From positions 1 through 64,000 of the forward strand of contig CAIQOO010000083.1 of the NCBI GenBank assembly GCA_903873485.1: 64,000 nt of DNA. The letters are read 5' to 3'. The stretch comes from an uncultured beta proteobacterium (lineage in GTDB: Bacteria; Pseudomonadota; Gammaproteobacteria; Burkholderiales; Burkholderiaceae_C). The notes beneath the pieces are model-generated. The model saw nothing but the letters and a program-made list of their open reading frames with translations, searched no databases and had not been told where the DNA came from. The translations under genes and the position numbers were made by a program. Numbering within the stretch: the stretch's first letter is position 1; every line of letters begins with the position of its first letter. Of this stretch, positions 617 to 25,799 are shown piece after piece.

Positions 617-1921
617 TTAAACAAAATCCACATATCTTTTGAACTCGGCTGGGGATACATCCAGCAGAAATTCGTCGCACTCACCGCGCTTGATTCGCAA
701 AAACTCTTCAATAAACTTTTCACCCAGTTCTCTGGTCAAAATCTCATCGCTGGCAAGGGCTTGCAGCGCATTCGGCAAAGTCGTTGGCAAACGTTTGATT
801 CCCCTAGTCACCAATTGATCCGCATTGAACAGGTACAAATTTTCATTACAAGGTTCCCCAGGCTCAATCTCGCACGCAATGCCATCCAAGCCCGCGTAAA
901 TCACCGCAGCAGTCAAAAGGTACGGGTTGGCCGACGAATCCGGCACGCGCAGTTCAAGCCGCCCACCAGGGGCGCGGACAAACGCTGTGCGGTTGTTGTC
1001 ACCATACGCAATATTCACCGGTGCCCAGGTTGCCCCGGAGCGCGAGCCACGTGACACCAGGCGTTTGTAAGAGTTGACGCAAGGTGCAGCCAGTGCCGTC
1101 AAGCCGCTGGCATGCGCTATCAAGCCACCCAGAAAGTGATAGGCCAGCGGACTAAGTCGCAAACCCCTGGGGTCGCTGGCATCTTCAAAAGCGTTTTCAG
1201 CCAAGCTCGCACCCGCCGACATGTGCATGTGCAAGCCGCTGCCGGATCGCTCGGCAAATGGCTTGGGCATAAAAGAACATAACATGCCGTGTTTCCTGGC
1301 GATAGCCGATGCCGCCATCCTGAAAAAAATCAGGTTATCGGCCGTGCGTAGTGCCTCGGCATAAGTGAAATTCACCTCAAATTGGCCGTTGGCATCTTCA
1401 TGGTCGATTTGATAGACATCAATCTCAGCCAATTCGAGCGCGGTGCGCAACTCAGTCAAAAACCCGGATACCGAAGAGAGGTGACGAAAATCGTAGCAAG
1501 GCTTGTCCAGCGACTCTGATCCGGTGGCCACTTCATAATCGCCGTTGGGCAGAGGTTTGAGCAAAAAAAACTCCGGCTCCAGGCCGGTGAAAAACTCCAA
1601 ACCGGTTGCCTGCTTGAAAGCCGCAATGGCCTTCTTGGCGATCACCCGTGAATCCAGCGGATGCGGACTGCCCAAGACATGACCCTCGCAGGTCACGCTG
1701 GCGACACCCGGCATCCAGGCCACAGGGCGGATGGATGTTGCATCACCCACCGCCATGAATTCCTGACCATGGGGTTCCATGCCCATGCCAGCAATCGCGA
1801 AGCCCGCAAAGCCTGCACCCGCGCCAAAAATCATGTCGCGGTGTTTGGCCGGCACCAGCTTGGCTTTGGCGCGCCCGTGAATATCGACAAACTGGGCCAG
1901 GTAATAGTCAAAATCGGTCAT
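617..1921 (-). CDS. Type III glutamine synthetase-like ligase (GlnT/GMAS group, 434 aa)
   Basis: An ATP-dependent ligase of the glutamine synthetase superfamily, expected to join ammonia or an amine to the gamma-carboxyl of glutamate. It starts MTDFDYYLAQFVDIHGRAKA and has the GlnT-type AGFAGFAIAGMGMEPHG segment, E-P-E-F-F-L-L (metal-binding Glu), Y-Q-I-D-H-E-D-A-N-G-Q-F-E-V-N and the ATP/metal region F-M-P-K-P-F then H-M-H-M-S. Length fits the roughly 435-residue type III/gamma-glutamylmethylamide synthetase group rather than the 470-residue GlnA. The ATG at 1921 overlaps the asnB stop (ATGA), which fixes the start and implies translational coupling. Its neighbours suggest that it amidates or ligates a product of this cluster rather than serving nitrogen assimilation. 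Substrate unknown. A second GS-like gene (puuA) lies at 24.4-25.8 kb. Confidence 0.85.
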   Translation of the reverse strand: MTDFDYYLAQFVDIHGRAKAKLVPAKHRDMIFGAGAGFAGFAIAGMGMEPHGQEFMAVGDATSIRPVAWMPGVASVTCEGHVLGSPHPLDSRVIAKKAIAAFKQATGLEFFTGLEPEFFLLKPLPNGDYEVATGSESLDKPCYDFRHLSSVSGFLTELRTALELAEIDVYQIDHEDANGQFEVNFTYAEALRTADNLIFFRMAASAIARKHGMLCSFMPKPFAERSGSGLHMHMSAGASLAENAFEDASDPRGLRLSPLAYHFLGGLIAHASGLTALAAPCVNSYKRLVSRGSRSGATWAPVNIAYGDNNRTAFVRAPGGRLELRVPDSSANPYLLTAAVIYAGLDGIACEIEPGEPCNENLYLFNADQLVTRGIKRLPTTLPNALQALASDEILTRELGEKFIEEFLRIKRGECDEFLLDVSPAEFKRYVDFV

Positions 1922-3693
1922 GAGGCTGTTTTCAGGTTGTCTTGATTTTCCGGGAAAAACTCTTGCAGCCACAACTTGGTCATCAAAAGTGTGCGCAGTT
2001 GCCGGGTGTGGTTGTGCAGGCCGCTGCGGTGTTCTTCGAGCATCACGAGCAACTCGTTGCGGTTAAAACGCCCACCATCAGGCAACATCAGAACGTCACG
2101 CGCCCAAGGGTACAAAGAGGTCTTGATCCATTCGCCGATCGGCAATGTCGGCATGGTCTTGGGCCGGAACACAAAATCATGGTCAAAGTATTTGGCCGCT
2201 GCATTTTTAAGAAAATGCTTGCCGATGCCCTGATAAAACTTGGCGGTCAAGGGCAGCCGGGCAAACATTTCACTCACGCGGTGATCGAGAAACGGTGCCC
2301 GTCCTTCTATGGACCAGCAGGCACCCATGCGGTCACCTTTGACCGAGTTATTGCCCGGCATCAATGATGTCAGTTCATAAGCTGCGACCTGTTCCATAGG
2401 CTCCAGATCAGACCACGGCTGGGTCATCTCGATGAAGCAATCCAGCGCCCCTTGGGTATATGGCAAAAAGTTGCTGCTCATCAGACGACGGCGATCCTTG
2501 TCGGTGGTGTAGCTGATCATGTCAAAGTAACCGCGCATCGAGAAGTTGGCGCGCGTCATCTCGGAGAAATACTGCTCGTTGTGCCTGAATCCCAACATGA
2601 CCTCATCAGGCCCGTCGCCATTGAACATGACGATCTTGCCCATTTCATGGGCGCGGCGCGACAGCAGGTAAAACAGGAAAAATGAGAAATCACCGTGCGG
2701 CTGCTCGGCATGGCGCACCACTGATTGCGCAATCTCCGGAATATTGGCCGGTGTGATGTCCAGCGAGGACAGGTTGATGTTAAGTTCTGCGGCCACGCGC
2801 TGCGCATAAGAAAATTCCGAGAAACCCTTGTCTTCAATGCGCAGGCCAATCGCATCAACCTGCGGGCGGTTCCACTGGTGAACCAGCCGCGCTGCAATCA
2901 CCGATGAATCCACGCCGCCACTGAGAAACAAGCCGCCGTCCACGTCAAAGCGCATCTGTAGCCGAATGGCGTTGTCCAGCGCCTGTTCAAACTCCTCATG
3001 GGTCGCGTCTTGCCGTTGACCTGCAATCGGCCATTGCCAGTAACGCTTGGGAGCAGAAAACTGGCCGTTGCAAAAACTCATGTAGGTGCCAGGCGGCAGA
3101 TGGCAGATGCCCTCAAAACAGGTTTCCGGCGGTGGGCAGTAGTTAAAAGAAAACACATTGCCCAAGGCTTTTTCATTGACGCGGCGCTCAAACCTGGGCA
3201 GCGCCAGAATCGCCTTGATCTCGCTGGCAAAGGCCAGACCGCCCTGGTATTTGGCATAGAAGCAGGGCTTGATGCCTTGGCGGTCGCGTGCCAGCATGCC
3301 GGTCTGCGTGCGCTGATCCCAGATGAAAAAGGCAAACATGCCGACCAGGTCGTCGAGCATCTTCTCGCCTTTTTCGCACCACAGGTGCACCAGCACTTCG
3401 GTGTCGCAACGCGACTTGAATTGGTAGCCTTTGGCCTTGAGTTGCTCTCTCAGTTCAATGAAGTTGAAAATCTCGCCATTGAACACCACCCAAACCTGTC
3501 CATCGGTGTTGCTCATGGGCTGTTTGCCGTTTTCCGGGTCCACCACAGCCAGCCGTGCGTGCCCGAGGATGGCAGCGCCCAGCACCTCAACGCCTTGCTC
3601 GTCAACACCCCTGTATTTGATGCTGTTGATCATCTTCCAGACATCATTTTCTGTTGTCTCAGAGGCGTTCACTACGCCGGCGATTCCACACAT
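1918..3693 (-). CDS. asnB: Asparagine synthetase (glutamine-hydrolysing), AsnB type (591 aa)
   Basis: Two-domain amidotransferase. The N-terminal class II glutaminase domain starts MCGIAGVV, so Cys2 becomes the catalytic nucleophile after Met removal; F-N-G-E-I-F-N and the R-D-R-x-G-x-K-P motif are present. The C-terminal synthetase domain carries the PP-loop L-S-G-G-V-D-S-S that adenylates a carboxylate, and N-G-D-G-P-D-E. Full length for the family. Close relatives occur both as true asparagine synthetases and as amidotransferases in exopolysaccharide loci. It begins 9 bp after the gcvPB-like stop and overlaps the next ligase by ATGA. In this setting it may amidate a sugar acid or other carboxylate; that part is inference. 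Confidence 0.9.
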   Translation of the reverse strand: MCGIAGVVNASETTENDVWKMINSIKYRGVDEQGVEVLGAAILGHARLAVVDPENGKQPMSNTDGQVWVVFNGEIFNFIELREQLKAKGYQFKSRCDTEVLVHLWCEKGEKMLDDLVGMFAFFIWDQRTQTGMLARDRQGIKPCFYAKYQGGLAFASEIKAILALPRFERRVNEKALGNVFSFNYCPPPETCFEGICHLPPGTYMSFCNGQFSAPKRYWQWPIAGQRQDATHEEFEQALDNAIRLQMRFDVDGGLFLSGGVDSSVIAARLVHQWNRPQVDAIGLRIEDKGFSEFSYAQRVAAELNINLSSLDITPANIPEIAQSVVRHAEQPHGDFSFFLFYLLSRRAHEMGKIVMFNGDGPDEVMLGFRHNEQYFSEMTRANFSMRGYFDMISYTTDKDRRRLMSSNFLPYTQGALDCFIEMTQPWSDLEPMEQVAAYELTSLMPGNNSVKGDRMGACWSIEGRAPFLDHRVSEMFARLPLTAKFYQGIGKHFLKNAAAKYFDHDFVFRPKTMPTLPIGEWIKTSLYPWARDVLMLPDGGRFNRNELLVMLEEHRSGLHNHTRQLRTLLMTKLWLQEFFPENQDNLKTAS

Positions 3694-3702
3694 GACAATC
3701 CT

Positions 3703-5124
3703 TTACGCTGTTAAATCAATACGGGCAATTTTGCGGCTCACCGGGGCACGCAGAAGCAGCGCATCGTCAGTGGCATCTTCGTCAAACACCTTCTGAAAGA
3801 TGCCAATCTGGTAATCAAGGCTGGCCTTGGACTCGGTCTCGGTCGGCTCAATCAGCATAGCCGATTTCAGGTCACCCGGAAAATAAACACAGCCTGCGCC
3901 CACCAGCGTCGGCGGGTGGATGCCGTAGTCAATCAGACGCTTGGCAAACTGGCGTGCCGAGGTGCGCAGCCGGGCACCCGACAGCAAGGCCTCATGCTTG
4001 CAGAGCTGGTCATACACCGGTGGCAGCATGTGCGCGAGTTGGTGTTGCAGATAATTGGCGTTAAGCACGGCGTTTTGCGATGCTTGACGCAGCCCGCTTG
4101 CGCCCATGGTGCGCAGGTAGCCGTAAGCCCGCAGCAGAACCGCCACATGGCCGTGGAAGCTTTTGATGCGACCGATCGACATTGGAGTCACTTCGTGGGG
4201 CTGGGCGACGCCCTCGCGTCGTACCGCTACTGGCGTCGGAAGGTAAGGAGCAAGCACCTTTTTGACAGCTACCGGGCCGGCACCCGGACCACCGCCGCCA
4301 TGCGGTGTCGCAAAGGTTTTATGCACATTGACGTGAACCACGTCAAAACCCATGTCGCCAGGCCGAACAATGCCCATCAGCGCGTTGAGGTTGGCGCCGT
4401 CGTAGTACAGCAGGGAACCGTTGGCGTGAACCAGTTCTGCAATTTCTATGATTTGATCCTCGAAAAGGCCCAGGGTTGAGGGGTTGGTCAGCATGAAAGC
4501 CGCCACGTCGGAAGTCAGCATGCGCTGCAGTTCCACGATATCCACCCGCCCGCGCAGGTCAGACGGCACGATGCGGCATTCAAACCCGGCCATCGCCGCC
4601 GATGCAGGGTTAGTGCCGTGTGCAGAATCTGGCACCAGCACCACCGGTCTCGGATTCTTTAAATGCGCGTAATGGGCGCGAATCATCAATAGGCCCGCCA
4701 ATTCACCATGGGCACCAGCGGCCGGTGCCAGGCAGCAGGCATCCATGCCGGTAATTTCGCAAATCATGCCTTGCAGTCGCTCAAACAGCTCCCAGACTCC
4801 GCCCAGGGTATTAGGTGGCTGTAGCGGGTGTGCATGGGCGAAGCCCGGCAGGCGTGCCAGCTCGTCATTGCGCTTGGGGTTGTATTTCATGGTGCATGAT
4901 CCCAAGGGATACGGGCCGTTATCCACACCATGCGAATCAAGACTTAGCCGCGTGAAATGCCGCACCACGTCCACTTCACTGATTTCCGGCAAGCCAATCG
5001 ACAAGCGCTGTCTGGCGAAGGCGGGGGGCACTAGCCTGATCATGTTGTCGCCCCCGTCAGCAAAGACATCGCTGGCCGCACCGGGGCGGTGCAGGCCAAG
5101 AAGGGTTTGGGAACCTGTTGTCAT
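3703..5124 (-). CDS. Glycine dehydrogenase (decarboxylating) subunit 2-like (GcvPB, 473 aa)
   Basis: PLP-dependent half of a two-subunit glycine decarboxylase P-protein. Visible motifs are Y-P-L-G-S-C-T-M-K-Y-N-P-K near the N-terminus, A-G-A-H-G-E in the middle, and the cofactor lysine site V-N-V-H-K-T-F-A-T-P-H-G-G-G-G-P-G, so the Schiff-base Lys is kept. Length fits the split form of about 480 residues. The start at 5124 is set by an ATGA overlap with subunit 1; an ATG 21 bp upstream gives a less family-like N-terminus. Proteobacteria usually carry a single-chain GcvP of about 950 residues, so a split pair is notable. No gcvT or gcvH is nearby, so function within a glycine cleavage complex is doubtful; decarboxylation of another amino acid or a biosynthetic reaction is possible. 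Confidence 0.85.
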   Translation of the reverse strand: MTTGSQTLLGLHRPGAASDVFADGGDNMIRLVPPAFARQRLSIGLPEISEVDVVRHFTRLSLDSHGVDNGPYPLGSCTMKYNPKRNDELARLPGFAHAHPLQPPNTLGGVWELFERLQGMICEITGMDACCLAPAAGAHGELAGLLMIRAHYAHLKNPRPVVLVPDSAHGTNPASAAMAGFECRIVPSDLRGRVDIVELQRMLTSDVAAFMLTNPSTLGLFEDQIIEIAELVHANGSLLYYDGANLNALMGIVRPGDMGFDVVHVNVHKTFATPHGGGGPGAGPVAVKKVLAPYLPTPVAVRREGVAQPHEVTPMSIGRIKSFHGHVAVLLRAYGYLRTMGASGLRQASQNAVLNANYLQHQLAHMLPPVYDQLCKHEALLSGARLRTSARQFAKRLIDYGIHPPTLVGAGCVYFPGDLKSAMLIEPTETESKASLDYQIGIFQKVFDEDATDDALLLRAPVSRKIARIDLTA

Positions 5125-6509
5125 ATCAGTTGTGCCTTCAGGCATTGAGCGGCATGTCGGATGTAGTCATCAATATCTTCGCTGCTTTTGGTTTCGGTTA
5201 CTGCGACAAGCAGGCCACGAGGATGCCCCGCCAGCGACTGGGCCACCGCCACGCCGGCAAAAATTCCCTGTGCCTGCATACGCTGGCAAAACAGGGCGGC
5301 GTCCACGGGCAGCTCGATTGAAAATTCATTAAAGAACACGCCGCTGCGCAAGGCCTTGATGCCTGGCAATAACAGCAAACGCTGTTGCAAATCACGCGCT
5401 TTGGCTGCGTTTACCTGTGCGATCTGCATGAAGTTCACCTCGCCAAGCGTCGCCAGATAGACCACCACCCGAATCGCATTCAAGGCCTGGTTGGAACAAA
5501 TGTGGCTGGTAGCCTTGTCGCGGGCAACGTGCTGCTCGCGATCCTCCTTGACCAGGGCATAGCCGAGTTGACCATTAAGGTCGTGAACACGGCCAACCAG
5601 ACGCCCCGGCAGATACCTTTCAAGCGGCTTGGCGCAGGCAATGATGCCGATATACGGCCCGCCGGCATTGAGCGGCAAACCCAGCGGCTGGCCTTCACAC
5701 ACTACGATGTCGGCACCCAGTCGGCCAGGTGGCTCCAGCCAGCCGCACAGCAATGGGTTGACAGATACGCTCAACAACACCTGATGAGCCTGGCACAGCC
5801 CGACCAAGGCGGCAACATCTTCGATTACCCCGAATGCGTTTGGGCTTTGCAGCACAAGGCCTGCGACATCACCTTTGATCAATAGGGCTTGCACAGCGGC
5901 AGCATCGGTCAGACCGGTTTCAGGGTCTTGTGCGACGCGTTCAATCGTGATTGAGCGTGGCAACAAATAAGTCAGCAAAACATCGCTGTAGTCGCTCCAC
6001 AAGGCAAGCGGAACAACAATGCGGCGCTTGCCCGTGGCACAGCACATCATCCAGCACGACTCCGCCAATGCCGTCGCACCGTCATAGACAGAGCAGTTGA
6101 CGCATTCAAGCCCCAACAGTCGGCCAGTCAGCACCTGAAACTCGAACAGTGCCTGTAGCAGGCCCTGACTCATTTCTGGCTGATAGGGTGTGTAGGCCGT
6201 CAGGAACTCGCCACGCGCAACGATGGCCTCCACCACAGCCGGCACGTAGTGTTCATAGGCACCACTTCCGAGAAAACTTGAGTGGGTCTGGCTGTTGCTG
6301 TTCATCTGCGACATGGTGCGCACATCGCGCATCAGTTCCCATTCGCTCAGAGCGTGGGGGAGTTCAAGCTCGCGGTTCAGGCGAATCTTGGCAGGCACAT
6401 CGGCAAAGAGTTGCTCTACCGATGTCAGCCCCATGACGGTCAGCATTTCCTGAACGTCATGTTCAGTATGAACGTTGAACCCCAGCGGGCGGTGCTTAGT
6501 TTGCGCCAT
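5121..6509 (-). CDS. Glycine dehydrogenase (decarboxylating) subunit 1-like (GcvPA, 462 aa)
   Basis: Non-catalytic half of the split P-protein. It contains the family stretch S-S-F-L-G-S-G-A-Y-E-H-Y-V-P, then F-L-T-A-Y-T-P-Y-Q-P-E-M-S-Q-G and S-V-Y-D-G-A-T-A, all characteristic of GcvPA. In known two-subunit enzymes, subunits 1 and 2 together form the active site, and the ATGA overlap here agrees with a complex made in fixed ratio. I chose the ATG at 6509 ([11 protein letters not shown]) over a GTG two codons earlier. The gene overlaps the end of the sugar-transferase gene by 14 bp, which ties it to glycan genes rather than to a gcvTHP operon. What the pair decarboxylates here is unknown. Confidence 0.85.
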   Translation of the reverse strand: MAQTKHRPLGFNVHTEHDVQEMLTVMGLTSVEQLFADVPAKIRLNRELELPHALSEWELMRDVRTMSQMNSNSQTHSSFLGSGAYEHYVPAVVEAIVARGEFLTAYTPYQPEMSQGLLQALFEFQVLTGRLLGLECVNCSVYDGATALAESCWMMCCATGKRRIVVPLALWSDYSDVLLTYLLPRSITIERVAQDPETGLTDAAAVQALLIKGDVAGLVLQSPNAFGVIEDVAALVGLCQAHQVLLSVSVNPLLCGWLEPPGRLGADIVVCEGQPLGLPLNAGGPYIGIIACAKPLERYLPGRLVGRVHDLNGQLGYALVKEDREQHVARDKATSHICSNQALNAIRVVVYLATLGEVNFMQIAQVNAAKARDLQQRLLLLPGIKALRSGVFFNEFSIELPVDAALFCQRMQAQGIFAGVAVAQSLAGHPRGLLVAVTETKSSEDIDDYIRHAAQCLKAQLI

Positions 6510-7050
6510 GACCACTTAACCTTTTCAATGTGCAAACCATGATTTTCAGGTCAAGCCATGGCGATGTTTCGCGTGTGTACTGGAGGTCCAGCGCCAGGCG
6601 CCGTGCGAAGCTGCCTTCGGAACGTAAAACCACCTGTGCCAGCCCGGTAATGCCCGGCCGCACACTGCAGCGCTGCGCCCAGTCGGCATCCGAATACAGC
6701 CCGCGCTGCACCGGTACATCGGGCCGCGGGCCAACCAGGCTCATGTCGCCTTTGAGCACATTGATGAGTTGCGGCAGCTCGTCGATGCTGGTTTTGCGGA
6801 TGAAACGGCCCACCCGGGTAATGCGCGGATCGTGATCCTGTGTGAAATACGGGCCAATCGCAGCCGCGTTGTTTACCATGCTGCGAAATTTGTACATGCC
6901 AAATTCGCGTCCGCCCAAACCCAGCCGGGTCTGGCGAAACAGCACCGGCTGGCCCATGGTTGCCAACACCGCCAGCGCCACCAGCAGCAGCAGCGGGCCA
7001 AGACATGCCAGTGCCATCAGCGATATCACCATGTCGATCAACCGCTTCAT
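6496..7050 (-). CDS. Small polyprenyl-phosphate sugar-1-phosphate transferase (184 aa)
   Basis: Bacterial sugar transferase of the monotopic PGT family (the catalytic core of WcaJ/PglC-like enzymes). It moves a phospho-sugar from a UDP-sugar to undecaprenyl phosphate at the inner membrane, the first step of making a lipid-linked glycan. The N-terminus [20 protein letters not shown] is the re-entrant membrane helix with the Lys-Arg before it. Then come P-V-L-F-R-Q-x-R-x-G, Y-K-F-R-S-M, the catalytic Asp-Glu in S-I-D-E-L-P-Q-L[15 protein letters not shown], and R-P-G-I-T-G-L-A-Q. This is the short form without the N-terminal membrane domain. It follows the aldolase-like gene by 13 bp. The sugar donor cannot be read from sequence. 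Confidence 0.9.
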
Positions 7051-7063
7051 CGGCTTAGGCGAT

Positions 7064-7933
7064 TCAAGCCGTCGGCGGCACCGGTGTCACGGCTGGCTCG
7101 GCAGGCTTGCTCAGCTTTTCCGCAATCGTCACGATAAGTGCCGCAATGCGCACCCGGTCGGCCTCGACCTGCTCCGGGCTGCGGGTGGCGAGTTCAACTT
7201 CGGCCTCGCGCAGTGCCAGGATTGCATCTTCAAAAGGCGTGTCGTCACCTCTGCGGTGATAGGCAAAGGTGCGCGACAAAATCACTGCTTGCGAGCCTAG
7301 CCGCAAATGCTCGGCCAGCACGTCGCGCCCGGGCAGCAAGCCTTCGTTCATGCGCGCCATGCCGCCAAAACCAAAGCGCAGGCCGCGCCGGGCGGTGATC
7401 GCCGCTGCCCGATCGACCATGCCGTTGGCCAAAGGCTCAAACATGAAGCGCATCGCCAGGGAAATATGCAAGTCGTTCAGGCCAACGTAAATTTCTTCAA
7501 GCCCCGGAAAACCAATCCATTCGTCAATCGAGGCCAGTGCATCGGCGGTTTCAAGCAGCGGCACGATCGGGCAACGGCCTGCCACGATGTCGATAAAGCG
7601 GCGCAGCGTCTGGGCATTGGTGAACATCGGCAGCATCAGCAGGTCGGCTTGCGGCCCCTGCCCCTGTGTCAAACCCTGCGCCAGCACCGCTTCAACCTCA
7701 GCCTGGGTGCCGTCATGCAGGGGGTTGACACGCACCATCAGCCTTGACTGCCTGAGCTGTGCCTTGATCAGGCCAATGTCGTCAATCTGGTGGTTGCTGA
7801 TGTAAGTATTGCGCCCGGCTTGCCGCTCTGCCTTGCCCAAGCGCTCCAGGTCAACAAACAGCCGGATGCCGCCCAACTCGTCGCAGCGGCGGGCCAGTTC
7901 AGGGTCATTGGTGATTTTCAGCAGATCAAGCAT
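7064..7933 (-). CDS. HpcH/HpaI aldolase / citrate lyase-beta family protein (289 aa)
   Basis: TIM-barrel lyase of the HpcH/HpaI superfamily, which makes or cleaves C-C bonds to pyruvate-, glyoxylate- or acetyl-CoA-type substrates using a divalent metal. Seen in the sequence: M-V-R-V-N-P-L (the conserved Arg), M-L-P-M-F, L-L-E-T-A-D-A-L (metal Glu) and Y-V-G-L-N-D-L-H-I-S-L (metal Asp). The C-terminus ends in a Pro/Ala-rich tail. It is the second gene of the minus-strand run, 25 bp after the flippase gene. The combination of this enzyme with a PGT and PLP and GS-like enzymes suggests that it builds a small carbon unit for the product; the real substrate is unknown. Confidence 0.75.
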   Translation of the reverse strand: MLDLLKITNDPELARRCDELGGIRLFVDLERLGKAERQAGRNTYISNHQIDDIGLIKAQLRQSRLMVRVNPLHDGTQAEVEAVLAQGLTQGQGPQADLLMLPMFTNAQTLRRFIDIVAGRCPIVPLLETADALASIDEWIGFPGLEEIYVGLNDLHISLAMRFMFEPLANGMVDRAAAITARRGLRFGFGGMARMNEGLLPGRDVLAEHLRLGSQAVILSRTFAYHRRGDDTPFEDAILALREAEVELATRSPEQVEADRVRIAALIVTIAEKLSKPAEPAVTPVPPTA

Positions 7934-7958
7934 GGGATTTGGTCGGAGTAAGTTTCGA

Positions 7959-9509
7959 TTATCGTTTCAGTGCAGCACGCAACTCCGGGCTGCAAAAATA
8001 GCAAATCACTATAAACATAATAGCTGTCAGCGCACATGCCATAAGGGCTGAGAGGCTTTTTGGTTCAAAAAATACAAACAAATCATGGTGCCCGGCAAGG
8101 GCACAAATCAACAGCAAAACCGCAGGCAGCATCATCGCTTGCCATGGCAGCAAAGACAAGCGTTGATTGCACCCGAGCGCATGGCCGGGCAATTTCAGCA
8201 ACGCCACCAGGGCCACCAGGCTCAGCACGGCGTTGATGACCAGCATCAGCAAAGAACCGTCACCGTTGGCCCAGGTGCCCAAGCCCAGCAGGGCGATCAG
8301 GGCAGCAGCGTAAGCCAATACCACCGCTCGCATGCGCCCGATGGTCGCCAACACGGTCAAGGCCACAGCGATCAGCGCCTGTGGCAACAAGCCAAAGGCA
8401 CCGATGCGGCCCCAGTTGGCAACGGTAGCCAGGCTTTCGGTTGGCATCCGGCCCCAGCCAAACAGCCAGTGGGCCAGGGCGGGCGCGCCCACTTGCAAGG
8501 CAGCGGCACTGGCGCAGGCCAGGGTCCAGGCCAGCAGGAAGGCCGCGCGCACCGTGCGCACCGCCGCATCCGGCAGGCTGGGCTGGGCTGCGATGCCGAC
8601 ACCGGCGGCTGATGGCTCGGCTGCACTGCGGCTGTCTGGCGCCAGCGCCCGCGTGATCGCCGGAAAAGACAGGGTGGCGACCAGTTGAATCGCCAGCACC
8701 AAAGGCAGCTCCACCAGTTTCCAGGCGTAATTGAACGTGACCAAGGCGCCTTCGCCAGCACCCGAGGCCAGGCTGCGCGCCACAAACGGCAGCATCAGCG
8801 GCAAACCAGCCGACAGGGCGGCCCAGCACCAGAGCGACGTACGTGGCAAAAAAATTGGTGCTGGCTGGCTGGCCGTGCCGTCCTTGATGGCAAAAGCCTG
8901 TAGCCGCCAGCGCAGCCACCCCAGGCGCAAACCCATCGCCAGCCACAAAAACAAGCCCAATAACGTCAACGTGCTGATATGAAAGGCATCGATCGCCACC
9001 CCATACAGCGCAGCAATGAGAACGCCATTGACCACCAGATTGGCGGCATACAGGCCGGTGAAATCGCGCTCGTGCTGCAAGCGGGTGACCCAAAGCGCTG
9101 CCAGCAGGGCTGCCGGCAAGGCGATGGCGCTCCACACCAGGCCCAGCGCGGCTTGCGGCAGCAGGTGACTGGACAAGCCACTGGCCAGCAAGCGGACAAC
9201 CGGCATCCGAAACAGGCACAACATGCAAGCCGCCAGCACGCCGATGCTCAGCAGCCAGTGCGCCACCCGGCGTTGCGACTGCGCCTGCCCAGGCGCAGAT
9301 TGCCCGGCCCAGTGGGGCAGCAGCATATATGCCAGCGCACCGCTGGCCAGCACGCCGGTCAGCCAGTCGGGCAAGGTGAGCATCAGCACCGCCACATCGC
9401 CCATGCCCGAAGTGCCAAAGGCCGCCGCCTGGGCTGACTCGCGCAGCAAGCCCAGCAGCCGGCTGGCCAGCAACAACACAACTGAAACAAGTCCGGTCTT
9501 GAGAAACAT
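7959..9509 (-). CDS. MurJ/MviN-family lipid-linked glycan flippase (516 aa)
   Basis: Multi-pass membrane protein of the MOP superfamily, MurJ branch, which flips lipid-linked sugars across the inner membrane. The N-terminus MFLKTGLVSVVLLLASRLLG followed by L-L-R-E-S fits the first MurJ helix, which is why I use the ATG at 9509 rather than a TTG at 9545. About 14 hydrophobic segments are visible. It is divergent from the essential MurJ I would expect, and it heads a run with a sugar transferase, so it may serve this cluster's glycan. A copy of the dispersed 36-bp element lies in frame at 8020-8056, so the last hydrophobic segment (S-L-S-A-L-M-A-C-A-L-T-A-I) is partly repeat-encoded. Confidence 0.8.
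   Translation of the reverse strand: MFLKTGLVSVVLLLASRLLGLLRESAQAAAFGTSGMGDVAVLMLTLPDWLTGVLASGALAYMLLPHWAGQSAPGQAQSQRRVAHWLLSIGVLAACMLCLFRMPVVRLLASGLSSHLLPQAALGLVWSAIALPAALLAALWVTRLQHERDFTGLYAANLVVNGVLIAALYGVAIDAFHISTLTLLGLFLWLAMGLRLGWLRWRLQAFAIKDGTASQPAPIFLPRTSLWCWAALSAGLPLMLPFVARSLASGAGEGALVTFNYAWKLVELPLVLAIQLVATLSFPAITRALAPDSRSAAEPSAAGVGIAAQPSLPDAAVRTVRAAFLLAWTLACASAAALQVGAPALAHWLFGWGRMPTESLATVANWGRIGAFGLLPQALIAVALTVLATIGRMRAVVLAYAAALIALLGLGTWANGDGSLLMLVINAVLSLVALVALLKLPGHALGCNQRLSLLPWQAMMLPAVLLLICALAGHHDLFVFFEPKSLSALMACALTAIMFIVICYFCSPELRAALKR
8020..8056 (+). repeat. Dispersed element copy A (ATAGCT-N17-AAGGGCT)
   Basis: Core from ATAGCT to AGAGGC with the family's exact 17-nt spacer. 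It lies inside the 3' part of the flippase gene, read on the opposite strand, and encodes part of its last transmembrane segment without breaking the frame. Confidence 0.8.
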
Positions 9510-17799: not shown

Positions 17800-18660
17800 T
17801 TATTTGGGCAATAGCGCCGCCACCTCGGCCCGGGTGGCAGCGGCAATCTCGCGCTCGCGCTTGCGAGTTTGGCGGGCGACCCAGATGCTGTAGGCAATCA
17901 CCACCGCCGTGACCGACACAATCAGCAAGGTGGCGGCGGCATAAATGGTCGGATTGATGCCGCGCCGGGCATAGCCAAAAATCACCTGTGGCAGCGTGTT
18001 GACCCCGGGGCCGGACAAAAACTCGGCAATCACCACATCGTCAAACGACAGGGTAAATGCCAGCAGATAGGCGGCAAGAATGGCTTGCAGGATATTGGGC
18101 ATGGTGATCAGGAAAAACACCTGATACGGTCGCGCGCCCAGGTCCATGGCCGCCTCTTCAATCGCCCGGTCCATCTCCAGCAGGCGCGACTGCACCACCA
18201 CCATGCCGTAAGCCATGCCCAGCAGGGTGTGGCCCAGCACAATCGTCAACATGCCGCGCTGCGGCCAGCCAAAGGCGTTTTGCACGCCGACCATCAGCAA
18301 CAGCAAAGACAGGCCAATCACCACCTCGGGCATCACCAGCGGTGCATTCACCATGCCCGAAAACAGCGTTCGCCCGGCAAAGCGCCGGTAGCGCACCAGC
18401 ACAAAGGCGGCAAAGGTGGCCAGCACCGCCGAGCAAATGCCGGCAGCGGTTGCCACTTTCAGCGACAGCCAGAAGCCTTCGACAATTTTGCTGTCCTGCG
18501 TCAAAGCCTCGTACCAGCGCAGGGAAAAGCCGGTGAACTCGGCATCTTGCCGGGTGCTGTTGAAAGAAAACACCACCATGAAAAACAGCGGCAAGTACAG
18601 AAACAGGAAAGTGGCCGCCATCCAGGCCCGGCTGACATGGCGATTAAGCAGATTTTTCAT
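17800..18660 (-). CDS. potI: Putrescine/polyamine ABC transporter permease PotI (286 aa)
   Basis: Second inner-membrane permease of the polyamine importer. Six hydrophobic segments are visible, starting with F-L-F-L-Y-L-P-L-F. The cytoplasmic EAA loop that docks on the ATPase reads E-E-A-A-M-D-L-G-A-R-P-Y-Q-V-F. The C-terminal tail is basic (R-Q-T-R-K-R-E-R-E). It follows potH by 10 bp and precedes the aldehyde dehydrogenase in one operon. Confidence 0.92.
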   Translation of the reverse strand: MKNLLNRHVSRAWMAATFLFLYLPLFFMVVFSFNSTRQDAEFTGFSLRWYEALTQDSKIVEGFWLSLKVATAAGICSAVLATFAAFVLVRYRRFAGRTLFSGMVNAPLVMPEVVIGLSLLLLMVGVQNAFGWPQRGMLTIVLGHTLLGMAYGMVVVQSRLLEMDRAIEEAAMDLGARPYQVFFLITMPNILQAILAAYLLAFTLSFDDVVIAEFLSGPGVNTLPQVIFGYARRGINPTIYAAATLLIVSVTAVVIAYSIWVARQTRKREREIAAATRAEVAALLPK

Positions 18661-18670
18661 GACCAGGCCC

Positions 18671-19588
18671 TTAAGCGCGTGCCTCGGCGGCGTCGCCGGT
18701 GTAATGGTAATAAATCGCCAGCGGGATGACGATCAGCCCAATCATGATGACGGCCAGGGCCGAGGCGCGCGGCCAGTTATTGCTGGTGAACATTTCGTCC
18801 CACACCACCCGGCCAATCATGATGTTCTCCGGCCCGCCCAGCAGCGACGGAATCACGAATTCGCCAACTGACGGAATGAACACCAGCATGAAGCCGGCCA
18901 CGATGCCAGCCTTGGACAGCGGCACCGTCACCAGCCAAAACGCCTTGAACGGTGTGGTGCCGAGGTCGTAAGCCGCCTCCAACAGCCGGAAATCCATCTT
19001 CACCAGATTGGCATACAGCGGCAGCACCATGAACGGCAGATAAACATAGGTCATGCCGACCAGCATCGAGACATTGGTGTAAAGCATCAAAACCGGCTCG
19101 TCAATCAAGCCCAGTGCCAGCAACACCTGGTTGATGACCCCCTGATCGGCCAAAATGCCTTTCCAGGCATAAACCCGCAGCAAGAATGAAGTCCAGAACG
19201 GCAGCATCACCATCATCAGCAAGGCCGGGCGAACGCTGGGCGCCGAGCGGGCGATGAAATAAGAAAACGGGTAACCAATCAACAAGCACAGCACGGCAGT
19301 ACACAGCGCATACCAGATCGAACGCAGATAGGCTTCGATGTAGATCGTCTGAAACAGCCCGCCACCGTCACCGGCGCGAAAAATCGACCAGTAGTTTTCA
19401 TATTTGAGCTTGAGCACGCCGGTCTCGGAATCCCAGATCGGCTTGAACGGCGAAATGTCGTTGCCCATATCGACAAAGCTGATGTAGAGCAGGATCAAAA
19501 AGGGCAACAAAAAAAACACCACCAGCCAGGCAAAGGGCAGTCCTATTACAAAGCCTCTGCCCGGCATCTTGAACGAAAGTGTGGTCAT
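18671..19588 (-). CDS. potH: Putrescine/polyamine ABC transporter permease PotH (305 aa)
   Basis: First permease of the importer. Its N-terminal helix (L-P-F-A-W-L-V-V-F-F-L-L-P-F) is followed by the long periplasmic segment typical of PotB/PotH, then five more helices. The EAA loop is L-E-A-A-Y-D-L-G-T-T-P-F-K-A-F. It starts 18 bp after potG. PotH/PotI heterodimers form the channel. Confidence 0.92.
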   Translation of the reverse strand: MTTLSFKMPGRGFVIGLPFAWLVVFFLLPFLILLYISFVDMGNDISPFKPIWDSETGVLKLKYENYWSIFRAGDGGGLFQTIYIEAYLRSIWYALCTAVLCLLIGYPFSYFIARSAPSVRPALLMMVMLPFWTSFLLRVYAWKGILADQGVINQVLLALGLIDEPVLMLYTNVSMLVGMTYVYLPFMVLPLYANLVKMDFRLLEAAYDLGTTPFKAFWLVTVPLSKAGIVAGFMLVFIPSVGEFVIPSLLGGPENIMIGRVVWDEMFTSNNWPRASALAVIMIGLIVIPLAIYYHYTGDAAEARA

Positions 19589-24434: not shown

Positions 24435-25799
24435 TACATGCAATAGCAAGTGCTCGCGTTCCCAAGGGGATATTACCTTCATGAATTCTTCAAATTCCAG
24501 CTCCTTGATCTCGGAATAGACGGTGATGAACTCCTTGCCCAGCACCTCATGCAGTTCGGATTCACGCCGCAGCCAGTCGAGTGCCTCGCCCAGGGAGCGC
24601 GGCAGCGAATAGGGCGACAGATAGGCGTCGCCCTTCATTTCCGGCTTGGGCTTGATCTTGTTCATCAGCCCGAGATAACCACAGGCCAGTGTCATGGCCA
24701 AGGCCACATAAGGGTTGGCATCGGCACCAATCACCCGGTTTTCCACCCGGCGCGCGGCCGGTGCCGAAATCGGCGAGCGGATGCCAACGGTGCGGTTGTC
24801 ATAACCCCACTCAATGTTGATCGGTGCGGCCGTGTTGCGCGACAGCCGCCGGTAGCTGTTGACGTAGGGTGCCACCAGCACCATGGCGGCCGGGATGTAG
24901 CGCTGCAAGCCGCCGATGTAATGCAGGAAGGCATCCGACTGGCTGCCGTCTTCGTTGCTGAAAATATTCTTGCCAGTTGCCTTGTTCAGAATGCTCTGGT
25001 GTACATGCATGGCGCTGCCGGGTTCGCCGGCAATCGGCTTGGCCATGAAAGTGGCGTACATGTCATGGCGCAGGGCCGATTCACGCACGGTGCGCTTGAA
25101 GAAAAACACCTCGTCGGCCAGGCCCAGCGGCTCGGCATGGAAAAAGTTGATTTCCATCTGGCCGGCACCGATTTCGTGAATCAAGGTATCGACATTGAGT
25201 TCCATCTTGTCGCTGTAATCGTAAATTTCTTCAAACAGCGGGTCAAACTCGTTGACGGCGTCAATGCTGTAGGCTTGGCGCGAGGTTTCGGCGCGGCCAC
25301 TGCGGCCAATCGGCGGACGCAACAAGGTATTAGGGTCGGTGTTGCGCGCGGTCAGGTAGAACTCCAGTTCAGGGGCGACGATCGGCTGCAGGCCCTCGGC
25401 GGCAAACAGGTCGCAGACCCGGCGCAGCACGGTGCGCGGGGCAAACGGCACCAGGTTGCCCTGGTTGTCAAAACAGTCGTGAATCACCTGGGCGGTCGGG
25501 TCAGACGCCCAGGGCACGATGCGCACGGTGGAGGGGTCGGGGCGCAACTGCATGTCCTTGTCAGTCGGGTCAATCACGTCGTAATAGGGGCCGCTGTCAG
25601 GGAACTCGCCGGTCACCCCCATCGCCACCACCGATTGCGGCAGCCGCATGCCACGGTCTTCGGTGAATTTGACCCGGGGCAGAATCTTGCCGCGTGCCAC
25701 ACCGGTCAAGTCCGGCACCAGGCATTCCACCTCGGTCACCCGGCGCTCGTTGAGCCACTGCTCAAGATCGTTGAAATTCATTGATTTTTTGTCGTTCAT
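24432..25799 (-). CDS. puuA: Gamma-glutamylputrescine synthetase PuuA-like (455 aa)
   Basis: GS-superfamily ligase that joins glutamate to putrescine, the first step of the Puu catabolic route. The N-terminus has the PuuA-type E-C-L-V-P-D-L-T-G-V-A-R-G-K-I-L-P; then P-E-L-E-F-Y-L (metal Glu), G-A-G-Q-M-E-I-N, K-P-I-A-G-E-P-G-S-A-M-H-V-H-Q-S and W-G-Y-D-N-R-T-V follow. GGAG lies before the ATG. The stop codon lies within a dispersed repeat. Neither puuB nor puuD-like genes are nearby, so the pathway is incomplete within this window. Confidence 0.88.
   Translation of the reverse strand: MNDKKSMNFNDLEQWLNERRVTEVECLVPDLTGVARGKILPRVKFTEDRGMRLPQSVVAMGVTGEFPDSGPYYDVIDPTDKDMQLRPDPSTVRIVPWASDPTAQVIHDCFDNQGNLVPFAPRTVLRRVCDLFAAEGLQPIVAPELEFYLTARNTDPNTLLRPPIGRSGRAETSRQAYSIDAVNEFDPLFEEIYDYSDKMELNVDTLIHEIGAGQMEINFFHAEPLGLADEVFFFKRTVRESALRHDMYATFMAKPIAGEPGSAMHVHQSILNKATGKNIFSNEDGSQSDAFLHYIGGLQRYIPAAMVLVAPYVNSYRRLSRNTAAPINIEWGYDNRTVGIRSPISAPAARRVENRVIGADANPYVALAMTLACGYLGLMNKIKPKPEMKGDAYLSPYSLPRSLGEALDWLRRESELHEVLGKEFITVYSEIKELEFEEFMKVISPWEREHLLLHV

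Follow-up and report, generated by a model that had tools for sequence, protein, structure and literature searches.

A seven-gene operon from an uncultured betaproteobacterium as a proposed methylamine-supply and amide-transfer cassette in a surface-glycan locus

In fosfazinomycin biosynthesis, according to passages of PMC6133997, the glutamine synthetase (GS) homologue FzmN loads acetylhydrazine on glutamate and the AsnB homologue FzmA frees hydrazine from glutamylhydrazine, the transfer itself not having been reconstituted; the same passages cite TsnB9, by which hydroxylamine is moved from glutamate to a carboxyl group. Another GS relative, the gamma-glutamylmethylamide synthetase GmaS, is marked, as described in sections of PMC7948447, by an Ala in place of GS Asp50 and a Trp in place of the glutamate of the Glu-flap, and its methylamine site includes Asp177, Glu179, Glu186 and Asn188 among other residues. 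For the P-protein of the glycine cleavage system, passages of PMC7259800 present a docking model in which Arg373 and Lys376 of human GLDC form salt bridges with the H-protein and state that mutation of these residues is known to cause nonketotic hyperglycinemia, and the methylamine-loaded H-protein is the sole subject in passages of PMC7227101. Here, we analyzed a stretch of 64,000 nucleotides (the window; positions 1 to 64,000 of contig CAIQOO010000083.1, assembly GCA_903873485.1) from an uncultured beta proteobacterium of the Burkholderiaceae_C, in which one operon brings relatives of these enzymes together: a two-subunit P-protein (GcvPA and GcvPB, jointly GcvPAB), an AsnB-like amidotransferase and a GS-family ligase, accompanied by a small phosphoglycosyl transferase (PGT), a MurJ-like flippase and an HpcH/CitE-like protein. 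Our reading, to which we assign a probability of roughly 0.6, is that the operon is a self-contained cassette for methylamine supply and amide transfer within a surface-glycan pathway.

Related loci were collected by a GcvPA scan of genome contigs; of 573 confirmed stretches, the 80 best were kept. In a GcvPA tree of the quick kind (80 rows; L080 and L088 are among those flagged for long branches), 28 rows including the window were separated from 52 canonical rows by a branch with an SH-like approximate likelihood ratio (SH-aLRT) value of 100. The subfamily side comprised the window, the 13 Comamonadaceae-type loci L054-L066, L076, L080, L088 and 11 more. The 28 rows are the window and 27 loci; the GcvPA counts and the tree do not include the fragment L078 and take in only the first 458 residues of L088. 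The 28 subfamily loci, on the other hand, are L054-L080 and L088 without the window, and include L078, a Polaromonas fragment from the same metagenome-assembled genome as L056, which was counted with the subfamily and carries the insert described below. As they come from the best 80 of 573, the 52 canonical loci represent the nearest relatives and no random sample.

The subfamily appeared to be separated from the glycine cleavage system by both its neighbours and its residues. With the gcvT-like and gcvH proteins of the window's own genome as tblastn queries, either gene was found in 0/28 subfamily loci, within the flanks available, and at least one of them in 40/52 canonical loci, the flanks being alike in length (median 18.5 kb and 15.9 kb, respectively). 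An adjacent gcvT or gcvH, which the initial annotation of this DNA had named as an argument against a separate pathway, was thus not seen in any locus of the subfamily. Among the 12 canonical loci without a match to gcvT and gcvH, 9 are from Staphylococcaceae, for which the betaproteobacterial queries are perhaps too distant. The same queries gave no match in the 64-kb window, as had been claimed from its sequence; lipoate genes, included in that claim, were not searched for. A full-length gcvP and a gcvH lie on a different contig of the own genome, which rules out GcvPAB as the sole glycine decarboxylase there. A search for a complete gcvTHP elsewhere in the genome, proposed at the outset, was in this way answered for gcvP and gcvH, and for gcvT by a T-protein-like open reading frame (ORF) beside them, identified by eye only.

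The position of human GLDC Arg373 (alignment to the human chain 6i33 places it at index 330, and the offset of 43 was confirmed with K754, found at index 711) corresponds in the GcvPA motif REQHIRR.KATSN to the Arg directly behind Ile. It is Arg in 52/52 canonical rows, and it is kept in 29/29 further loci (L022-L050) that represent the best matches outside the own genome in the class sample. In the subfamily this Arg is lost in 28/28 rows: all 14 operon rows and all 3 further GS-linked rows have Ala, and the last 11 rows divide into 7 with Ala and 4 with Ser, so that the Arg373 contact of the docking model has no counterpart there. Moreover, a six-residue insert in GcvPB was present in 26/26 subfamily rows with GcvPB and in 0/44 canonical rows, and is absent from the full-length GcvP of the own genome. 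This count omits L062, L069, L071, L130, L114, L100, L105 and L117, where GcvPB is absent or partial in the DNA available or the match is GcvPA; L110, L125 and L133, with no GcvPB match, are likewise outside it. Both subunits are members of the P-protein family by their NCBIfam scores, and the lysine of GcvPB that binds pyridoxal phosphate (PLP), described as intact from the start, is present as K276 in the motif HKTF, the blocks around it being conserved with canonical P-proteins. On the basis of the subfamily marks, the kept PLP lysine and its surroundings, we infer that GcvPAB is independent of the glycine cleavage system and would still decarboxylate glycine, with no need of the H-protein. 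Some GS-less members of the subfamily lie near genes of methyl-accepting chemotaxis proteins with a HAMP and an MCP signalling domain (L067, L072, L075, L079), and a response-regulator gene stands beside GcvPAB in L073 and L075.

The operon GS, initially described as a GS-like ligase, can be placed more precisely as GmaS-like. Its closest solved relatives are methylamine ligases: 9qur, named 'Glutamate--methylamine ligase' (E 6e-144), and 7cql (E 3e-91), the first glutamine synthetase in the PDB ranking coming at 1.4e-63. We take 7cql to be the assayed Rhodovulum GmaS (RhGmaS), whose residues fit. When the GmaS residues of PMC7948447 were placed by us on the sequence motif, all of them (Ala at the Asp50 position, the flap Trp, D177, E179, E186 and N188) were found in 16/16 linked GS proteins, that of the window included; the Asp50 and Glu-flap glutamate of a true GS are not present in the operon GS. 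Similarity and residues together predict a methylamine ligase, and a role as an ordinary glutamine supplier was rejected on the PDB ranking and the GmaS residues. The window-type GS is 53% identical to 9qur and 42% to 7cql. A second GmaS lineage is found in L076, L080 and L088, where the proteins are 58, 51 and 59% identical to 7cql, respectively, and 38-40% identical to the window GS, and all score over the TIGR03105 cut-off. A GS adjoins GcvPAB in 15/28 subfamily loci and in 0/52 canonical loci. That one GcvPAB subfamily has GmaS neighbours of two different lineages is the strongest hint that the product of GcvPAB is methylamine. In the own genome, the window GS is the sole GS-family match over the TIGR03105 cut-off. 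The window contains a second GS-family gene at 24447-25571, which is below this cut-off and probably encodes an ordinary glutamine synthetase.

The AsnB-like protein has an intact N-terminal Cys and both domains (Cys2, SGGVDSS), and the best of its five PDB matches is 7ylz, a 'hydroxyamidotransferase' (E 9.8e-50), presumably TsnB9. An AsnB 54-84% identical to it follows GcvPB in 15/28 subfamily loci (12 Comamonadaceae-type loci, L078, L076 and L088). The presence of one close AsnB subfamily behind GcvPB in so many loci suggests a joint function. The AsnBs of L014 and L015, two loci discussed below, are more distant (28-36% identical), as is that of the canonical locus L094 (24%). All cassette AsnBs (15/15) share YRG before the conserved Asp (YRG-DE.G or alike) and RCDTEV, and both are absent from 4/4 control AsnBs (L014, L015, L063); they may be marks of donor specificity. 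By analogy with the hydrazine and hydroxylamine enzymes, the AsnB of the operon probably takes methylamine from gamma-glutamylmethylamide. The earlier idea that AsnB and GS form amides thus holds as a probable insertion of an amine into an amide linkage, with the donor of AsnB now refined to gamma-glutamylmethylamide.

Co-occurrence of the gene set across genomes, on which the initial annotation had made its pathway depend, was observed. The Comamonadaceae-type loci, from Acidovorax, Polaromonas, Ramlibacter, Verminephrobacter and other Burkholderiaceae or Burkholderiales, are 68-75% identical in the GcvPA scan, and 11/13 have all seven genes in the same order. L062 meets the contig edge directly after GcvPA; L061 has GcvPA-GcvPB-AsnB-GS, with no match to MurJ, HpcH or PGT in the 4.4 kb upstream. 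The Verrucomicrobiales contig L076 repeats the seven-gene order, except that PGT and GcvPA are separated by an additional gene. In L088 (Sphingorhabdus), GcvPA and GcvPB are fused in one frame of 902 codons, followed by AsnB and GS, and L080 (Pseudomonas caricapapayae) has GcvPA-GcvPB-GS. The best GcvPA match outside the own genome in the class sample was 42-43% identical, and a plasmid search with GcvPA gave 23 records, the 20 matches listed being 34-42% identical. The L080 genes lie in a stretch (L080:5447-15432) that encodes a carbamoyltransferase, a PhyH oxygenase, an ATP-grasp protein with an L-amino-acid-ligase C-terminal domain, GcvPA, GcvPB, the GmaS-like GS and a major facilitator superfamily (MFS) protein, and is probably a small-molecule biosynthetic cluster.

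By gene content, the cassette is housed in surface-glycan loci, including several for nonulosonic acids, which upholds the assignment of PGT, MurJ and their neighbours to such a locus. MurJ, whose start ATG at 9509 agrees with the MFLK start of its homologues, is 44-58% identical at the same place in 12/13 of the loci L054-L066. A gene with a weak match to the capsule-synthesis family PF05159 (21.6 bits in L056, cut-off 20) follows GS within less than 1 kb in 10/13 Comamonadaceae-type loci, stands at a greater distance in L063 and on the opposite strand in L064, and occurs in L076, L014 and L015 as well. A tblastn search of the 13 loci, which differ in flank length, with L056 and L076 proteins found a PP-loop amidotransferase in 9, HisH-like, GFO/IDH and cytidylyltransferase-like proteins in 6 each, a HisF-like protein in 4 and a NeuB-like protein in 2. 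WbuX is over its cut-off in L056, L055 and L076; PseG and PseI are over theirs in L076, together with a PseF-like gene below cut-off, as are NeuC and NeuB, on the opposite strand, in L088. Beside the operon of L064, on the opposite strand, are genes for a protein that by eye resembles a glycine amidinotransferase, for which NCBIfam offers no more than a weak dimethylargininase match, and for a methyltransferase that weakly matches sarcosine/dimethylglycine methyltransferase (L064:16923-18119 and 18150-19376).

The HpcH-like protein appears to belong to the glycan module rather than to the amine route. Its PF03328 score is 19.1 bits, under the gathering cut-off of 25, and its predicted fold is the pyruvate/phosphoenolpyruvate (PEP) TIM barrel; as the VIA-align list for this protein was filled by pyruvate kinases, the absence of other lyase families from it is uninformative. 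The HpcH-like protein, PGT and AsnB occur together in the two 20-kb loci L014 and L015, where tblastn finds no GcvPA, GcvPB or GS (genes of L014-L019 were first chosen by a crude longest-ORF rule and then checked by tblastn). Conversely, GcvPAB, AsnB and GS are present without the HpcH-like protein in L061 and L088. This pattern led us to reject a part of the HpcH-like protein in amine formation, which had been proposed for the lyase from the window alone.

The gene identities, the conservation of the set, the subfamily features and the GmaS residues, all read from sequences, are consistent with the following pathway. GcvPAB would decarboxylate glycine on PLP, protonate the carbanion and release methylamine, which the GmaS-like ligase would trap on glutamate at the expense of ATP, giving gamma-glutamylmethylamide. 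The Cys2 domain of AsnB would free methylamine from this compound in place of glutamine, and methylamine would pass to the AsnB synthetase domain and, with the adenylated carboxylate of a sugar precursor, give an N-methylamide. PGT would attach a phosphosugar to the carrier lipid, and the finished unit would cross the membrane by way of the MurJ-like flippase. What we infer are the product methylamine, the role of AsnB in transferring it, and the nature of the acceptor as a carboxyl sugar (perhaps a nonulosonic or uronic acid). The arrangement suggests that methylamine is built into a surface molecule instead of being used as food. From the pathway sketched initially, this version retains the conserved set, a GcvPAB independent of glycine cleavage, the step from amine to amide and the glycan locus, and drops the HpcH lyase from amine formation.

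Several observations weigh against this interpretation. No GS was found in 13/28 subfamily loci, 6 of which (L062, L069, L071, L073, L074, L078) have less than 1 kb of sequence downstream of GcvPAB, and chemotaxis or response-regulator genes lie near 5/11 rows of the GS-less part of the subfamily; thus, a role in amide formation may not extend to the whole subfamily. No AsnB was found in L080. The module is rare: it was detected in 4/299 genomes of the same-family sample, the own genome included, and in 0/3 same-genus genomes within it, and AsnB at E <= 1e-150 matched 1/398 genomes of the phylum sample, only the own genome. Because the 13 nearest loci are closely related, they amount to few independent cases. 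The Lys376 equivalent is Lys or Arg in 26/28 subfamily rows (Lys in the window), as in 52/52 canonical rows, so that the H-protein contact may persist. The window's genome gave no match to NeuB, a family found in 9/14 controls, and a nonulosonic acid as the certain acceptor in this genome was rejected on that ground; it also gave no match to two L056 neighbour genes, in a search without a positive control. Among the papers listed in a title-level literature search, none showed an N-methyl uronamide glycan structure. Additionally, the premise that the P-protein without H-protein forms methylamine from glycine goes back to old biochemistry, according to which the reaction is slow.

Three other explanations were considered. 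Gamma-glutamylmethylamide could be joined whole, through its amino or carboxyl group, by a ligase to the glycan or another product, with AsnB performing an ordinary glutamine-dependent amidation elsewhere. This would suit L080, in which GcvPAB and the GmaS-like GS are paired with the ATP-grasp ligase-like protein and no AsnB was found; as Pfam shows no ATP-grasp ligase among the seven genes of the window, and as the AsnB behind GcvPB is of one subfamily set apart from those of L014 and L015, we consider it improbable. An equally small chance is given to the conversion of glycine, or another small amino acid, to an amine other than methylamine or to a product of carbon-carbon bond formation, for use by GS and AsnB. 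The conservation of GcvPB around the PLP lysine, and an identity of more than 50% between each GS lineage and one of the two solved methylamine ligases compared, argue for methylamine, even though residues near the changed segment of the window GcvPA differ (V310 for Thr, H338 for Asn) and RhGmaS accepts other small amines, as stated in sections of PMC7948447.

The least probable, in our estimate, is ordinary nitrogen and one-carbon metabolism within a glycan operon, with a redundant GcvPAB using the genome's own GcvH, GS making glutamine and AsnB a primary amide. NCBIfam does call GcvPA, GcvPB, GS and AsnB standard enzymes, all over cut-off; the genome has gcvH and gcvP; split GcvPA is common, the window protein matching 299/369 class genomes at E <= 1e-30, full-length GcvP included; the Lys376 equivalent is mostly kept; and AsnB homologues occur in glycan loci without GcvPAB (L014, L015). 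Such an operon would not be expected to show the uniform loss of Arg373, the GcvPB insert and the lack of gcvT and gcvH neighbours throughout the subfamily, or a GS in which GmaS residues replace those of the true enzyme. A methylamine-supply and amide-transfer cassette is the reading that we prefer.

The seven genes of the operon (Table 1) are intact, with 0 internal stops, and lie on the minus strand between 617 and 9509. In the order from MurJ to GS, they are spaced by 25, 13, -20, -25, 9 and -4 bp; the ORF coordinates thus confirm the early description of seven same-strand genes with gaps of no more than 25 bp and three overlaps. PGT, GcvPA, GcvPB, AsnB and GS are backed by Pfam and NCBIfam.

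Table 1. Genes of the operon and the positions within them referred to in the text (coordinates of the window).
Feature	Position	Strand	Evidence
MurJ-like lipid-linked glycan flippase, distant family member	7959..9509	-	NCBIfam TIGR01695, 36.7 bits (cut-off 235.55)
HpcH/CitE-like protein, predicted pyruvate/PEP TIM barrel	7064..7933	-	
Small phosphoglycosyl transferase (PGT), bacterial sugar transferase	6496..7050	-	PF02397, 222.9 bits (cut-off 27)
GcvPA, proposed H-protein-independent subfamily	5121..6515	-	NF001696, 501.5 bits (cut-off 364); tree
Ala331 of GcvPA at the human GLDC Arg373 position	5523..5525	-	alignment
GcvPB, PLP-binding subunit, same subfamily as GcvPA	3703..5145	-	NF003346, 599.5 bits (cut-off 441)
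PLP Lys276 of GcvPB	4318-4320	-	motif HKTF
Six-residue GcvPB insert LVGAGC (HPPT-LVGAGC-VYFP)	3889..3906	-	alignment
AsnB-like amidotransferase, proposed N-methylamide transferase	1918..3693	-	Cys2 and SGGVDSS; best PDB match 7ylz
GmaS-like gamma-glutamylmethylamide synthetase (predicted), annotated 'type III glutamate--ammonia ligase'	617..1921	-	TIGR03105, 530.7 bits (cut-off 469.6)

The operon cannot be traced leftward because position 1 of the window is the edge of its contig, C83 (143,426 bases). Directly after the operon, at this edge, a small gene of the UPF0175 family lies at 328-579. No transposase gene was noticed left of the operon; the first 120 bases are a 38-residue open fragment at the contig edge, which may be the transposase end mentioned in the initial annotation. 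A promoter and terminator scan gave 2 promoter-like sites (3.8 expected) and 16 terminator-like sites (11.7 expected), neither count being informative.

In the literature searched (titles and the starts of abstracts of the papers listed, most subscription journals lying outside its scope), we found no description of the combination of GcvPAB, GmaS and AsnB, or of methylamine as a biosynthetic product of a P-protein. We see an even chance that a P-protein subfamily has turned into a dedicated methylamine synthase and forms, with a GmaS loader and an AsnB transferase, a third glutamate-carried amine route after those of hydrazine and hydroxylamine, one that is spread across phyla, from glycan loci for nonulosonic acids in Comamonadaceae, Verrucomicrobiales and Sphingorhabdus to a Pseudomonas small-molecule cluster, and that places N-methylamides on bacterial surface sugars. 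If so, bacteria would purposely make methylamine from glycine as an anabolic building block, by an enzyme that standard family models assign to the glycine cleavage system. The names gcvPA, gcvPB and 'type III glutamate--ammonia ligase' would then be misread in these genomes, and the two kinds of GcvPAB could be told apart by two sequence marks, the missing Arg373 and the inserted LVGAGC. Methylamine would join the amines carried on glutamate, and an N-methylamide would be predicted in surface glycans.

Compared with the split-type glycine cleavage P-protein (GcvPA/GcvPB; 1wyt), the operon GcvPAB is alike in its NCBIfam membership and its PLP lysine region, but differs in forming a separate subfamily with the Arg373 equivalent replaced, an insert in GcvPB and no gcvT or gcvH nearby; in L088, the two subunits of this subfamily are fused. 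Loci for the amidation of nonulosonic acids and N-acetyl sugars (Pse, Neu, WbuX-HisH-HisF) share WbuX, PseG, PseI, NeuC or NeuB with individual cassette loci; to our knowledge, they lack GcvPAB, GmaS and the AsnB subfamily of the operon. In Legionella legionaminic acid, the methyl groups are added by a methyltransferase, whereas in the operon's product the N-methyl would arrive with methylamine. Common to both would be N-methyl groups on a surface-glycan sugar, which in the Legionella lipopolysaccharide are carried by a nonulosonic acid, N-methylated legionaminic acid (PMC13306086). GmaS enzymes (7cql, 9qur) are the nearest solved relatives of the operon GS, which keeps their residues; the GmaS of PMC7948447, in the sections considered, starts the use of methylamine as a nutrient, whereas the gene of the operon GS belongs to a biosynthetic operon that also encodes an amidotransferase and a proposed source of methylamine. 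With FzmN/FzmA of fosfazinomycin and TsnB9 of trichostatin, as presented in passages of PMC6133997, the operon shares the scheme in which a GS homologue loads a nucleophile on glutamate and an AsnB homologue unloads it. It would differ from them in using methylamine as the nucleophile where they use hydrazine or hydroxylamine, in drawing it from a P-protein and in its surface-glycan setting.

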